Positions 3,885-7,911 of a DNA stretch of 64,000 bases are shown here, in pieces (the first letter of the stretch is position 1; each line of letters opens with the position of its first letter). The position numbers were made by a program, and so were the translations under genes. The stretch covers positions 7,119,001-7,183,000 of the forward strand of contig NC_007645.1 of NCBI RefSeq assembly GCF_000012985.1, in the 5' to 3' direction. The stretch is from Hahella chejuensis KCTC 2396. Lineage in GTDB: Bacteria > Pseudomonadota > Gammaproteobacteria > Pseudomonadales > Oleiphilaceae. The notes beneath the pieces were generated by a model, which had not been told where the DNA came from, made no database searches, and saw nothing but the letters and a program-made list of their open reading frames with translations.

Positions 3885-3911
3885 AGAAACAATCCACATC
3901 CATCGGATCAA

Positions 3912-4209
3912 ACAACAGGGTTAGCAGTGTGCAAAGCAGCGAAGAACAAAGAGCGATCGGCGCAAGCATGGCGCCCGGAAAGCGTGACGTAAAGCCAGAG
4001 ACAAATCAGAGTAACCAAGGATTGAGGGAAATGTAAGGCGGGTTATTGCTTAATGAAATTCTAAATTCAGGCCTTACGGCCGCTGGCCACTTCTCTCAAT
4101 GCTGGGTCTACCTTCACCAGATTGGTAATGAGTTGATTACACGCTATAAAAAGAATAGAAGTAATCGTTATACTCTAGCCTCAATGACACGGACGCAATG
4201 AAGAACTGT
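3912..4209. other. Intergenic region before the tRNA-like gene
   Basis: About 300 bases without a supported gene. A TTATACT element at 4168-4174 could be the -10 box of the downstream tRNA-like gene; no convincing -35 box is seen at the right distance. Nothing else stands out. Confidence 0.4.
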
Positions 4210-4285
4210 TCCGGGGTAGCTCAGTATGGAGAGCGCTCGGCTGAATTCCGAGAGGGCGCTGGTGCAAATCCAGCCCCCGGACCCA
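4210..4285 (+). tRNA. tRNA-Phe(GAA)-like gene, non-canonical
   Basis: The sequence folds as a complete 76-base cloverleaf. The acceptor stem is 4210-4216 with 4275-4281 (7 perfect pairs), the D stem GCTC/GAGC, and the anticodon stem CTCGG/CCGAG with a CTGAATT loop (anticodon GAA at 4243-4245). The T stem is GCTGG/CCAGC, and the CCA end is encoded. Several normally invariant positions are off. The T loop is TGCAAAT instead of TTCnAnT, position 37 is T rather than a purine, and the discriminator is C rather than A. It may therefore be a specialised or degenerate tRNA rather than the main phenylalanine tRNA. It lies 15 bases before the start of a large unknown gene and is probably co-transcribed with it. 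Confidence 0.75.
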
Positions 4286-4300
4286 TCCATAAGACTGGAT

Positions 4301-6655
4301 ATGCCAAGTAATAAAAAGCCTGAAAAAGACAAAATCACCATTGATGCTGCTTACCCTGAATTTCAGCTATCAAAGGCTCTGCAAAATAATCTTAGCAATC
4401 CGTCCCACAGCTCAGGGCAGAAAGTGGCGCGATGGGAGAACATTCTCGCGAGCATGTATTCTGGCGAGTTGAGTATAGGCTCTCGAACTCCCGTCTCCAA
4501 TACGCCTGCATGGGTGACATTGGAAGTTGCGACTGGCGGATTTGCGACTGGGACTTTCTTAGCCGGAGGGCCGTTAACGGAGGACGAGATTGCCTTTGCG
4601 AAAAGGCTAACGCTTCCAATAAATACAGCAACAAGGGCCGCCCTGAACAGTTACTTTTTAAGCGAAGAAGGCGTAAAGCTCCTAAATCAACATATCTCTG
4701 AGGGCCGGTTTTCCATCAGCGTTCCAGAGGAAGGAGCCCTGGCAATTGTTGCTTGGCTGCTTGAACACGGAGATGTGTCAGGCGCTAAATCGATTCTTGC
4801 AGAAATACTTCCTTTTTTCTCCGAACTAAAGTTCTATCCCAATCTTTCCGGTCAGTTTACTGCAAGTAATGGATTTGTATTTCTACAACCTGTCAGATCA
4901 GCCATAGAAAAGCTTAACAACGTCGAAGCAAATAAGCGCATCACCGCACAAGAAGAAGCAATCCGAATTTGGATTCCTTTATATGACCAACTCGTCGGAC
5001 TGCTCATTGAAACCGTGGAAGGTGAATTGCCTTCAGTTAGGGTGAATGATTCAGGAAAGCCAGTACGAGACCACCTCGGCCACTATGACCTAAAAGGTGG
5101 GTTTCCTGGTAAGAGATTTCCCGCGGGTTGGACTGAACGCGCTACATCCTTATCCGGGCGCCATGAACAAATGGCTTCGCAACATACTTTAGGCAGTCGA
5201 AGATTGAAAGCCGGTTCAGTCCATGCGCGAATGCTGGCTTTTCTTAAACAATGTATTGATAGCCCAACAACACTGCATAAACGGGATCGCGGATATGTTC
5301 GTTTACACTTGGCGCGCTATATCGCCAAACGAGGCGCGCCAGGAGAGGATAAGCAACTTGTGTCACGACTCAGGCAGTCTCAGCAGTGTAGACCAGAAAA
5401 GTACCATGAAATTGCAAAAATCCTGGTACAGCGATTAATACCTCTTCCTCAGAATAAAGGACTTGAATATGTCGGGCGCGCCATTGCCCCCATCACTTCG
5501 GATGAATCGACGCACAACGCTCCTGCTGGATCATTGATCCCCCGACATTTAGCCAAGAAAGTGGAACGCACCCAAATCGCCACTATCGACCAGCTTATAC
5601 AGCAAGGCTATATCACCTCTGCGGATGCTATTGCTAACGTATTACCGCAATTGACTGCAAATATAAGAGCTTCCTGCTTTGACGATTCTGGGCTGAAGAA
5701 TATTTACTCAAGTATTTATCAGGCTTTTCGGCAACGCCGCTCTTTGCTGCTTATTAACTTACAAAACCAAGTTCAGCTGACTGAACTTCCGTGGATTTCA
5801 AAGGTAGAAAAGTACCGTAATACCAAACCAAGAAACCAAGAGTTAGCGATAACTATTCTGTCGGATATAGTTATCTTGGCGCTTGTAAATTTTCCTTATT
5901 CTATTCTTCCAAATAAGCTGCTTCAGGAAATTAGAAGCTTGGCTGACCAGGCAAAGCTCAAAGTTCCTATTGTCGATGAAATAGCCGCCGATATTTTCAT
6001 GGGCGAGTTCACTCAGAAGTATGCGAATGCCTGTGAGTACGCCGCCGAACTGCTTCAGGACACACTATATGCAAGGTACTACAACGTAGACGGCCCATCT
6101 TCTATTAAGAAAACGTTGTTTGGCGGCAGAAGCATGACTGCCAAAAACTTTTCCAGCTTATGTTCAAAACGCGCTGGCGCTCCTGGGAAGGGTTGGAGTG
6201 TAGCCAGCAACGCCATCGTTATTGAGCAACAACAGATATTAACCACACAGAACCTGGCGGTACTGTTTCAGGTTTTGGGGTTAAAGACTAAGTTGGGAGA
6301 AAATCTATCACTCATGGTGAAAGACTGTTTCAAGTGGGTATGTAGACGCCAGCAGTTAAAAATGGATAGTAGCCATACTGGGCTTAACATAATGAAAAAA
6401 AGCGCCTATGCGTGGCGACAAATGATTTTTTTCCTAACACAGCTGCCACCGGAAGAGCATCATGATCACGTATCCTGGATGCAATCGCATTTGTCGGAGC
6501 AAGCGCCTGAGTTCAGGAGGCGGTTCGCTCCCGTAATGACAGGTCTTCAGTTAGCTGTGAACGGTCAGCGCCTGCAAAAGACAGATTCAGAGGCAATACA
6601 GTTTTTAGGTTGGGCGGTAGGGAAACATCCTTTAATGCCATCAAACATCCCCTGA
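4301..6655 (+). CDS. Large conserved-looking protein of unknown function downstream of tRNA-like gene
   Basis: This 784-residue protein belongs to no family I can name with confidence. The frame is open further upstream, to an ATG at 4226, but that codon lies inside the tRNA-like gene, so I place the start at 4301 (MPSNKKPEKDK). No Shine-Dalgarno is visible; a small ATCCA/TGGAT hairpin fills the 15-base gap. The N-terminal third has a striking block, 'SRTPVSNTPAWVTLEVATGG' followed by 'FATG', of the kind that marks a conserved family. The middle has basic stretches (residues about 330-380) that could bind nucleic acid. No signal peptide, membrane segment or P-loop is seen. The close tRNA-like gene upstream and the convergent RNA ligase gene downstream suggest, as inference only, a role in RNA or tRNA biology. 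Confidence 0.7.
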   Translation: MPSNKKPEKDKITIDAAYPEFQLSKALQNNLSNPSHSSGQKVARWENILASMYSGELSIGSRTPVSNTPAWVTLEVATGGFATGTFLAGGPLTEDEIAFAKRLTLPINTATRAALNSYFLSEEGVKLLNQHISEGRFSISVPEEGALAIVAWLLEHGDVSGAKSILAEILPFFSELKFYPNLSGQFTASNGFVFLQPVRSAIEKLNNVEANKRITAQEEAIRIWIPLYDQLVGLLIETVEGELPSVRVNDSGKPVRDHLGHYDLKGGFPGKRFPAGWTERATSLSGRHEQMASQHTLGSRRLKAGSVHARMLAFLKQCIDSPTTLHKRDRGYVRLHLARYIAKRGAPGEDKQLVSRLRQSQQCRPEKYHEIAKILVQRLIPLPQNKGLEYVGRAIAPITSDESTHNAPAGSLIPRHLAKKVERTQIATIDQLIQQGYITSADAIANVLPQLTANIRASCFDDSGLKNIYSSIYQAFRQRRSLLLINLQNQVQLTELPWISKVEKYRNTKPRNQELAITILSDIVILALVNFPYSILPNKLLQEIRSLADQAKLKVPIVDEIAADIFMGEFTQKYANACEYAAELLQDTLYARYYNVDGPSSIKKTLFGGRSMTAKNFSSLCSKRAGAPGKGWSVASNAIVIEQQQILTTQNLAVLFQVLGLKTKLGENLSLMVKDCFKWVCRRQQLKMDSSHTGLNIMKKSAYAWRQMIFFLTQLPPEEHHDHVSWMQSHLSEQAPEFRRRFAPVMTGLQLAVNGQRLQKTDSEAIQFLGWAVGKHPLMPSNIP

Positions 6656-6750
6656 CTCGGTTTACTTTCAAGCTTAACAGAGCGGAGGCGGCAGTCTCCC
6701 GATCCGCCTCATCGCCTTTACAGGGCTCAATTCGCACCGTCTCAAAAAAA

Positions 6751-7911
6751 TCAACTAAACTCCGTCCCACCCTTCCGGCACAGGTACGCTGCGCTCACGG
6801 ACTTCAAACACACGCGGCCGAGTTCCGGGTCGCGTCTTTCTTTGGTCGGGGTGATGACGATGCCTTCGCGGATGTGGTCGGCGTCGAGTTTGGTGGCGCC
6901 GTCGGTATGTTCTCTCATGACTTCCTGTGAGAAGGGGCCGCGGTAGAGAATGGGGACGGTTTGGACGCCGAGTTGTTCCGCCATCGCCTGCAGCGCGTCG
7001 AAGTCGTGGTAGCGTTGGGCGCCGCGGTAGCCGCTGGCGAGGGCGAACAGGCGGAAGCCTAGATCTTTGCCATACGCCAGATCCTGAACGCCAGGGCCGA
7101 ATGTCTCGCCCAGAATGAACAAGGGCTCATCCTCCACTCGCAATTCCCCGCTCGCCAACAAAGCGTCGATCACCGCCACCATGCCGGTGGTGGCGCGTAC
7201 GTAGACATTCGCGCTGTTGCCGTCGGTATTCGCAAGCACCAGGCCTTTGGCGCCGAGACCTTTGGAAAAGATCAACACATTGCGTTTAACGCCGAACGCC
7301 TCTTGGTGAGCGTCTTTTTCTGGCAAGATAGCGACGCCGGTAAATGTGCCGTGCAGCTTTTCGGTGAACACGACTTCTTCGCCGTCCTGCAGAATATCCG
7401 GATAGGACTTCCAGTTTTCCACATCAAAATGGACCGTCAAGCGCTGTCCGGCGTTAAAAATGTCGCCCGCCATGGAAGTCGGAATGGGCGGCTCATATTT
7501 TTCTACACCCAACAGTTCAGCGACACATTGCCCTTCTTCCACCGGGCTTGAGCGCATCAGTTCGGAATCCCCGTCGCTGTGTTCAATCACGGCGGTGTCG
7601 CCGTCCATACGCACGGGATAGCAGACGCCCTGGCTCAGTTCACCGCGCAGTTTGATGGCGGTAATGCGATTGCCGTCTTTGCCGTTCAGGCGTCCAACGC
7701 CTTTCTCGGCGTTCCAGAAATTCAGTTTTTTCAATAGCCACTGAGGCAGCAGCGAGGCCTCTGGGATGTAAGCGATCAAGTCCCCGGATTGGAACTCGCC
7801 TTTTTTGACGATAGAGCGATAGCCGTCAATCACGGCGAACTCAATCGCGTCTGCATTCGGATGCGGCTCAATTTGACGTATACGTTTTATAGGTACAGAA
7901 AATTTAGACAT
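6751..7911 (-). CDS. RNA ligase, DRB0094 (Deinococcus Rnl) family
   Basis: This is an ATP-dependent RNA ligase of the Rnl5/DRB0094 type, which seals 3'-OH/5'-phosphate nicks in duplex RNA or RNA-containing strands through a covalent lysyl-AMP. Motif I is E-K-L-H-G-T with the nucleotidyl lysine at residue 185. Later motifs are visible as 'FILGETFG', 'EGIVITPT' and, near the end, 'CLKSVS'. The N-terminal 150 residues form the extra domain typical of this family ('IRQIEPHPNADAIEFAVIDG'). The frame is open further, to 8001, but ATG 7911 (MSKFSVPIKRI) matches the family start. The gene is convergent with the unknown 784-residue gene and divergent from pepQ. About 386 residues is normal for the family. 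Confidence 0.88.
   Translation of the reverse strand: MSKFSVPIKRIRQIEPHPNADAIEFAVIDGYRSIVKKGEFQSGDLIAYIPEASLLPQWLLKKLNFWNAEKGVGRLNGKDGNRITAIKLRGELSQGVCYPVRMDGDTAVIEHSDGDSELMRSSPVEEGQCVAELLGVEKYEPPIPTSMAGDIFNAGQRLTVHFDVENWKSYPDILQDGEEVVFTEKLHGTFTGVAILPEKDAHQEAFGVKRNVLIFSKGLGAKGLVLANTDGNSANVYVRATTGMVAVIDALLASGELRVEDEPLFILGETFGPGVQDLAYGKDLGFRLFALASGYRGAQRYHDFDALQAMAEQLGVQTVPILYRGPFSQEVMREHTDGATKLDADHIREGIVITPTKERRDPELGRVCLKSVSAAYLCRKGGTEFS

Follow-up and report, generated by a model that had tools for sequence, protein, structure and literature searches.

Why should a tRNA gene that appears unfit for translation stand directly ahead of a large protein gene of no recognised family? The question is raised by a locus of Hahella chejuensis KCTC 2396, which lies in a 64,000-nucleotide stretch of DNA (NC_007645.1, 7,119,001-7,183,000; this whole stretch is called the window below, and positions are window positions unless given as genome or locus positions) of a genome that consists of one contig of 7,215,267 bases. 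The original prediction for this DNA pointed to a tRNA-Phe-like gene with unusual core bases, a 784-residue protein (here P0001) encoded just downstream and an RNA ligase gene converging on both, and suggested that the three could form an RNA-based system. We find that the tRNA-like RNA and the protein recur together as a pair in two phyla and that the ligase looks like a bystander. We propose, with a probability of roughly 40%, that the pair is a mobile two-part RNA-protein unit in which the tRNA-like RNA acts in trans on the protein, with defence as the likeliest use.

A tRNA-like RNA recurs ahead of one protein gene

Relatives of P0001 were collected by protein search alone, blind to the RNA. 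The closer clade of the family came to ten loci: the window itself, two further Hahella genomes (HN01 and G001), another gammaproteobacterium (G207) and six plasmids of Streptomyces, Embleya and Curtobacterium (genome G004 was left out, as it appears to be HN01 again, with the same contig place). The proteins share 30-94% identity, the Hahella HN01 relative being at 94%. All ten loci have a tRNA-like gene upstream of the protein gene and in its orientation, 1-31 bases ahead of the start codon, i.e. the suspected link between RNA and protein takes the form of a recurring pair. The same picture was obtained for the plasmids, since all six that hold the protein also hold the tRNA-like gene and, when an actinobacterial tRNA-like sequence was used to query a plasmid collection, the six strongest matches were the six protein-bearing plasmids. 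The gene is single-copy at nine of the ten loci; in Embleya NBC_00888 (L039:5625-5963) it is present in three tandem copies, all with intact stems and each with its own anticodon loop, and two of the copies do not adjoin the start codon (four similar places were counted in this record in the plasmid search). Standard programs found the copies incompletely: ARAGORN made no call in plasmid loci L041-L043 and missed the gene-adjoining copy in L039, and the Rfam tRNA model at its cut-off missed L038 and detected the others.

A wider profile brought in a distant clade from four genomes (G1080, G1243, G1359 and G1107), with 22-33% identity to the closer clade. Because in none of these four genomes was the tRNA-like RNA found within ~0.9-1.3 kb upstream of the protein gene, it is assigned to a single clade of the protein family. 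The expectation that homologues would be paired with an upstream tRNA-like gene therefore stood for the closer clade (10 of 10 loci) and failed for the distant one (0 of 4 genomes), giving 10 of 14 loci over both clades. A weak match in G684 (E 8.6e-4 over 50 residues) was dropped as chance, being a short frame that overlaps another gene. Three protein scans of viral contigs returned no relatives of the protein, and no phage record matched it. The DNA pattern of the tRNA-like gene did occur at 11 loci in viral contigs, none with the protein within the surrounding 1.5-15 kb; at ten of them the matching place is called as an ordinary tRNA, and at one (L055) it is a tRNA-Trp-like fragment. A second tRNA-like DNA pattern gave zero loci in viral contigs.

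Because the tRNA-like RNA stands before the start codon, which at all ten loci is the natural place of an operator, a serious rival explanation is that it acts in cis, i.e. that the protein binds a tRNA-mimic leader of its own mRNA and represses its own translation. E. coli threonyl-tRNA synthetase represses its own translation in this way, via a tRNA mimic in the thrS leader. More generally, regulation of synthetase translation by anticodon mimics in mRNA has been described (PMC6542539). Operators of the thrS type share with the Hahella locus a tRNA-like structure just 5' of the start codon, but they imitate a single tRNA in part and belong to a synthetase gene, whereas here there is a full cloverleaf with a changing anticodon and a protein without a known tRNA-binding domain. 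No synthetase or other tRNA-enzyme domain was found in Pfam or NCBIfam (for one family member ribonuclease D came up weakly, below threshold, at E 0.018). The complete set of 21 pairs, the CCA end of the gammaproteobacterial copies, the tandem copies of Embleya and the differing anticodon loops all exceed what an operator needs. We favour action in trans over action in cis because Embleya NBC_00888 has three tandem copies, two of them away from the start codon, and because all four gammaproteobacterial loci encode CCA, past which Hahella and G207 cease to be alike (by eye); we consider the operator unlikely, though it is to be taken seriously.

Features of the RNA and of the protein

In the window, ARAGORN called a tRNA-Phe(GAA) at 4210-4285 and the Rfam tRNA model scored 57.9 bits at 4210-4282. 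All 21 stem pairs are formed, which bears out the claim of a perfect fold. The further claim that the T-loop, position 37 and the discriminator deviate from normal tRNAs was also confirmed: the T-loop is UGCAAAU (G55), and positions 37 and 73 hold U and C, respectively. For comparison, the 57 other tRNA loci found by Rfam in the host genome gave 47 distinct sequences, of which 46 encode CCA; one without CCA was set aside and 46 were parsed. U55 is present in all 46, U37 in one and C73 in one (tRNA-His). An ordinary tRNA-Phe(GAA) is encoded elsewhere in the genome and, with the deviant G55, U37 and C73, this led us to reject an ordinary tRNA-Phe identity, in line with the view that the gene is distinct from the tRNA-Phe of the organism. 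The host also has a tRNA gene cluster (Ser, Ser, Asp, Leu, Trp, Gln; genome 5638816-5639796) that is possibly on a mobile element.

Twelve tRNA-like copies (four gammaproteobacterial and eight actinobacterial, giving 11 distinct sequences) were parsed. Every copy has 21 of 21 stem pairs, and all 231 pair cells of the 11 distinct sequences are standard pairs; the comparison of secondary structure called for by the prediction thus gave a conserved cloverleaf. Two-sided changes occur at 11 of the 21 pairs, with a covariation score of 0.469 versus 0.162 for shuffles and at most 0.107 for slid controls. The RNA is like an ordinary translational tRNA in this four-stem cloverleaf and unlike it in its loops. 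The T-loop bases U54-U55-C56 are present only in G207, which has a 6-base anticodon loop; the other ten distinct sequences have G55, the T-loop carrying UGC in Hahella and GGC in all eight actinobacterial copies. U55 and the bases G18-G19 normally hold the tRNA elbow together, and the G18-G19 pair is broken in 7 of the 11 distinct sequences (D-loops read by eye). A 7-base anticodon loop with a purine at position 37 occurs in seven of the eight actinobacterial copies, but not in Hahella, where base 37 is U, or in G207. The tRNA-like RNA is therefore apparently unfit for translation.

Within the anticodon loop C32 and U33 are constant and places 34-38 vary, with GAA, GAU, UCC, UCG, CUC, CCG and CUG as triplets at the anticodon place; among the eight actinobacterial copies this loop is the least conserved region (mean identity 0.70). 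Four of these eight copies (in L039, L041 and L043) hold C-UUCG-G inside the loop, a very stable tetraloop, and L040 holds C-UCCG-G. The changing triplets, together with the 6-base loop of G207, speak against a dedicated aminoacyl carrier, i.e. a charged tRNA-like RNA whose amino acid is used outside the ribosome in peptide or lipid modification. Such a carrier would fit the CCA end, which is kept at all four gammaproteobacterial loci, but the C73 of these copies occurs among host tRNAs only in tRNA-His, and no transferase family was matched by the protein in Pfam or NCBIfam. We hold this explanation to be quite improbable.

As to descent, the tRNA-like sequences of the window and G207 are 80.3% identical, and either is at most 71.2% identical to any parsed Hahella tRNA (67-71% for the comparison of the Hahella and G207 copies with ordinary Hahella tRNAs); the likeness between Hahella and G207 stops after the CCA (read by eye). 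The copies within Pseudomonadota thus form one RNA family, and the actinobacterial copies resemble each other. Because the likeness between the RNAs of the two phyla does not exceed that among ordinary tRNAs, a tRNA may have been recruited separately in each phylum, or an old RNA may now have diverged. Double recruitment ahead of the same gene would be convergence and would therefore argue for a need of the tRNA shape. A covariance model of the unit's RNA gave the 12 copies scores of 74.5-93.7 bits, as against 71.0 for the highest-scoring ordinary tRNA of eight genomes; it is weak evidence on kinship because it was built from these copies and an ordinary tRNA comes so close.

The protein gene begins 15 bases past the encoded CCA, as had been described. 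A longer listed frame begins at an ATG within the tRNA-like gene (4226), which is unlikely to be the true gene start because in Hahella HN01 the same ATG runs straight into a TAG stop. The description of the protein as one of no recognised family held: Pfam, NCBIfam, PHROGs, PADLOC and PDB sequences gave no credible match to P0001, only sub-threshold hits, and eight family members searched against Pfam had none, ToxN and Abi_2 included. Over 13 sequences 61 residues are invariant, including RRS 479-481, E560, D564, E642, TT 648-649 and RQ 706-707. The "strongly patterned" N-terminus noted earlier is not a conserved feature, the first ~50 residues being among the least conserved (by eye). A structure model, built from two near-identical sequences, is mostly helical with a mean pLDDT of 35.5, too poor for use. 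Kinship with TROVE/Ro60 (Rsr) was considered and found unsupported, with hhalign probabilities of 0.1% and 0.4%; the controls, in which the TROVE profile was compared with two remote TROVE proteins and the two clades of the P0001 family with each other, reached 100%. Since a low-depth profile can miss remote kinship, the protein may yet share the fold of Ro60. The G1107 relative (L099) has a Cys-rich N-terminal region ahead of the conserved core, which is without a credible Pfam match.

The spacing between RNA and protein gene differs between loci. Four plasmid loci out of six have the start codon 1, 2, 3 and 3 bases past the discriminator, and in the remaining six of the ten loci the gap is 11-31 bases. 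Because a gap of 1-3 bases has no room for a ribosome-binding site, the mRNA of these four plasmid loci would be leaderless once the RNA has been processed. Leaderless mRNAs are common in actinobacteria. These short gaps are also what would be expected if the tRNA-like structure did nothing more than direct cleavage by RNase P and RNase Z, so that the mRNA would have no leader and its 5' end would be fixed, and a mere processing leader would also fit if each phylum had recruited a tRNA of its own. However, it does not suit the longer gaps, and it leaves the altered T-loop, the differing anticodon loops and the tandem copies unexplained; we regard it as improbable. No terminator-like site was found on the + strand between RNA and start codon (the window was scanned; the gap is 1-31 bases across loci). 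Just 5' of the RNA in the Streptomycetaceae loci L040 and L041 there is a promoter-like pair, TTGNNN-18-TAGCCT (by eye, unscored), and a possible -10 element is proposed for Hahella (Table 1).

Genomic setting and the neighbouring RNA ligase

Table 1. Positions of the unit and of the features around it in the window.
Feature	Position	Strand	Basis and remarks
Strain-variable segment with the whole unit; Hahella G005 has a 2,059-bp segment instead	4053..6749		blastn of G005
Possible -10 element TATACT	4169..4174	+	Read by eye; kept in three Hahella loci; proposed only
tRNA-like RNA, full cloverleaf, GAA at anticodon place, G55/U37/C73	4210..4282	+	ARAGORN, Rfam, stem parsing
Encoded CCA end	4283..4285	+	Sequence; likewise in 4/4 gammaproteobacterial loci
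784-residue protein P0001, family without known match, helix-rich in low-confidence model	4301..6655	+	ORF (open reading frame) list, profile searches, model
DRB0094-like RNA ligase; neighbour, judged outside the unit	6751..7911	-	PF09414 and PHA02142 OB fold

The unit lies within a segment that varies between Hahella strains and takes in 157 bases ahead of the tRNA-like gene. In Hahella G005 the alternative segment encodes a methyltransferase and a NOV_C protein (L093:5832-7714), the latter matching the PADLOC candidate defence family PDC-S36 with E 4.4e-94, and the two look like a small defence cassette. To judge from the alternative contents, cassettes are exchanged at this Hahella site, and one or more of them is a defence candidate. 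The protein family is rare and patchy in its distribution, with 3 of 58 relatives, 2 of 398 Pseudomonadota, 3 of 369 in a class-level set (one judged chance), 5 of 390 in the order, and 1 of 233 and 1 of 398 in the family and order of G207, respectively; these sets overlap and include genomes searched from (the counts of 3/58 and 2/398 include the window's own genome). Outside the unit, no ORF is common to the loci, except among the Hahella loci and between two Curtobacterium plasmids. The Streptomyces yangpuensis unit (L038) is preceded by transposase genes of IS21 and IS982, and a nearby methyltransferase (L038:9467-10252) matches PADLOC mad2 with E 1.9e-26. Another strain-variable segment of Hahella, from ~1.2 kb before the window to 2033 and not at that place in Hahella G005, holds a SEC-C motif protein (901-2040; just below the Pfam cut-off).

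Mobility raises the question of whether the element was simply inserted beside a host tRNA gene, leaving neighbours without a link. tRNA genes are common attachment sites, and the cross-phylum tRNA-like sequences are no closer mutually than to ordinary tRNAs. A pseudo-tRNA has been described at the flank of a Bacillus cereus pathogenicity island (PMC3399842). Same-strand pairing at ten of ten loci is strongly contrary to such a coincidence, and the Hahella and G207 copies are closer to each other (80.3%) than to the parsed Hahella tRNAs (at most 71.2%). Further, the actinobacterial copies are mutually alike and travel on plasmids together with the protein, the variable Hahella segment extends 5' of the tRNA-like gene, and the covariance model separates the copies from ordinary tRNAs (74.5-93.7 vs 71.0 bits), which is weak evidence given how it was built. 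We therefore rejected a tRNA attachment site as the main reading on the strength of the same-strand pairing, and think it very improbable.

The RNA ligase gene does converge on the pair, as described, and all three genes stand side by side in all three unit-bearing Hahella loci. This would suit an RNA-repair set in which tRNA-like RNA, protein and ligase act together. In keeping with it, three of the seven Hahella genomes have unit and ligase, and three others, all drafts (G002, G003 and G006), have neither; moreover, in Salmonella one operon holds RtcB, Rsr and a Y RNA that has a tRNA-like domain (PMC7790460). However, the seventh genome, Hahella G005, has the ligase at 96% identity without the unit, and no credible ligase match was found in 14-20 kb around the six plasmid loci and G207. 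Because of these two observations we judge the ligase a neighbour, and its proposed role as a part of the system found no support; we rejected it as a partner in the main reading and rate a joint repair set as highly unlikely. A second RNA_ligase-family gene (E 3.8e-33) lies at genome 7115885-7116463 (L001), ~3 kb before the window start and within 10 kb of the window ligase, and a third match lies at genome 4489566-4490024.

What the unit may do

Three features lead us to favour a trans-acting unit, namely the complete cloverleaf, the CCA end in the gammaproteobacteria and the tandem arrangement in Embleya, and defence is favoured because the unit is mobile and its site is shared with a candidate defence cassette. 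In the mechanism that we propose, one promoter would drive the tRNA-like RNA and then, at once, the mRNA of a protein of ~700-800 residues; tRNA-processing enzymes of the host would excise and finish the RNA, leaving a nearly leaderless mRNA. The tRNA-like RNA, not being a working translator, would be a dedicated trans partner of the protein, either holding it inactive or loading it. If the unit serves in defence against phages or other mobile DNA, the RNA may be bait or sensor, its variable anticodon loop above all, and an intruder that cuts or displaces it would alter the activity of the protein. A more specific and rather unlikely version of this is an RNA-gated immune module, in which a host-matured tRNA decoy would restrain a large effector and the anticodon loop, variable from copy to copy and open to tandem arrangement, would set which tRNA cutter or displacer made by an intruder triggers it. 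Should each of the two phyla have recruited the RNA on its own, which the sequences permit, such an effector would demand the tRNA shape as such.

Several results weigh against the proposed trans-acting defence unit. With regard to the protein, (i) no recognisable nuclease or effector domain was found in it, (ii) there is no histidine among the 61 invariant residues and (iii) PADLOC gave no match for P0001, the case for defence resting on one alternative cassette at one site. With regard to the pairing, ARAGORN, Rfam and the unit covariance model found no tRNA-like gene in ~0.9-1.3 kb upstream of the protein gene in any of the four distant-clade genomes, nor did an unlinked copy stand out in them (150 first-look candidates scored per genome). 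A consensus promoter scan of the + strand from 3900 to 6900 found none, including ahead of the Hahella gene. With regard to the RNA, the number of further pair types was matched by 117 of 500 shuffles, and much of the two-sided pair change divides the gammaproteobacterial from the actinobacterial copies. Thermodynamic folding gives the cloverleaf as the best fold in only four of six sequences, two of the four having one additional pair within that loop which holds the anticodon, and folding z-scores are modest (-0.8 to -2.2). The cross-phylum identity of 57.5-68.8% is at the level of ordinary tRNAs, and CCA is at the right place in only one of the eight actinobacterial copies. Finally, the anticodon loop is only slightly more variable than the T-loop (0.70 vs 0.76 among the eight actinobacterial copies), and UCG recurs in four of these eight.

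The layout of the unit resembles known RNA-protein pairs. ToxN is several times smaller than a protein of the P0001 type. In ToxIN and AbiF, an RNA encoded directly 5' of a protein gene inhibits that protein in trans, RNA and gene being under a common promoter in AbiF (PMC8860590, PMC12373285). The Hahella unit is like type III toxin-antitoxin (ToxIN) and AbiF systems in having a noncoding RNA gene directly 5' of one protein gene. Tandem RNA copies as in ToxIN are seen in Embleya NBC_00888 (three), the other nine loci having one copy each. The Hahella unit is unlike ToxIN in that the RNA is a full tRNA cloverleaf and not a pseudoknot repeat, in that only 1-31 bases separate RNA and start codon with no terminator hairpin between RNA and gene in the window, and in that no endoribonuclease of the ToxN/AbiQ fold was found (Pfam for eight members, PADLOC for P0001). 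It differs from AbiF/AbiD in that Pfam found no Abi_2 domain and there is no invariant His for the R-x4-H motif of HEPN.

Rsr (Ro60) with Y RNAs such as YrlA offers a second likeness, i.e. a protein gene adjoining a noncoding RNA with a tRNA-like part, and the genes for Rsr and Y RNA are sometimes near an RNA ligase (PMC7790460). Unlike Rsr, the protein here is without TROVE in Pfam and by hhalign (0.1% and 0.4%), and the RNA is tRNA-like alone. The authors of the Salmonella study suggest that the tRNA-like domain of the Y RNA may compete for an anticodon nuclease (PMC7790460), an idea that by analogy comes close to the bait proposed here. tRNA-Other, a pseudo-tRNA of Bacillus cereus, is likewise a tRNA-like gene by mobile DNA that does not serve translation, but it is part of a larger RNA, and the available text does not describe a pairing with one conserved protein gene (PMC3399842). 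In the open-licence PMC literature, as far as titles and the opening lines of abstracts go (preprints and most subscription journals being outside this scope), we found no description of a pair of tRNA-like RNA and such a protein. Because RNA and protein match none of the systems compared, though the layout resembles known pairs, this kind of RNA-protein unit appears to be new.

That the pair turns up again in bacteria without close kinship, and on plasmids, points to an RNA-protein system not described so far, and it indicates that tRNA genes called by annotation programs can conceal such units. A full tRNA cloverleaf that is kept by one protein gene in two phyla and is apparently unfit for translation would represent a new class of noncoding RNA partner. 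Should the RNA be an operator, a gene would be under the control of a tRNA mimic of unusual completeness; should it act as decoy or sensor, the unit would link the attack on tRNA in phage infection to a bacterial response via a dedicated bait.

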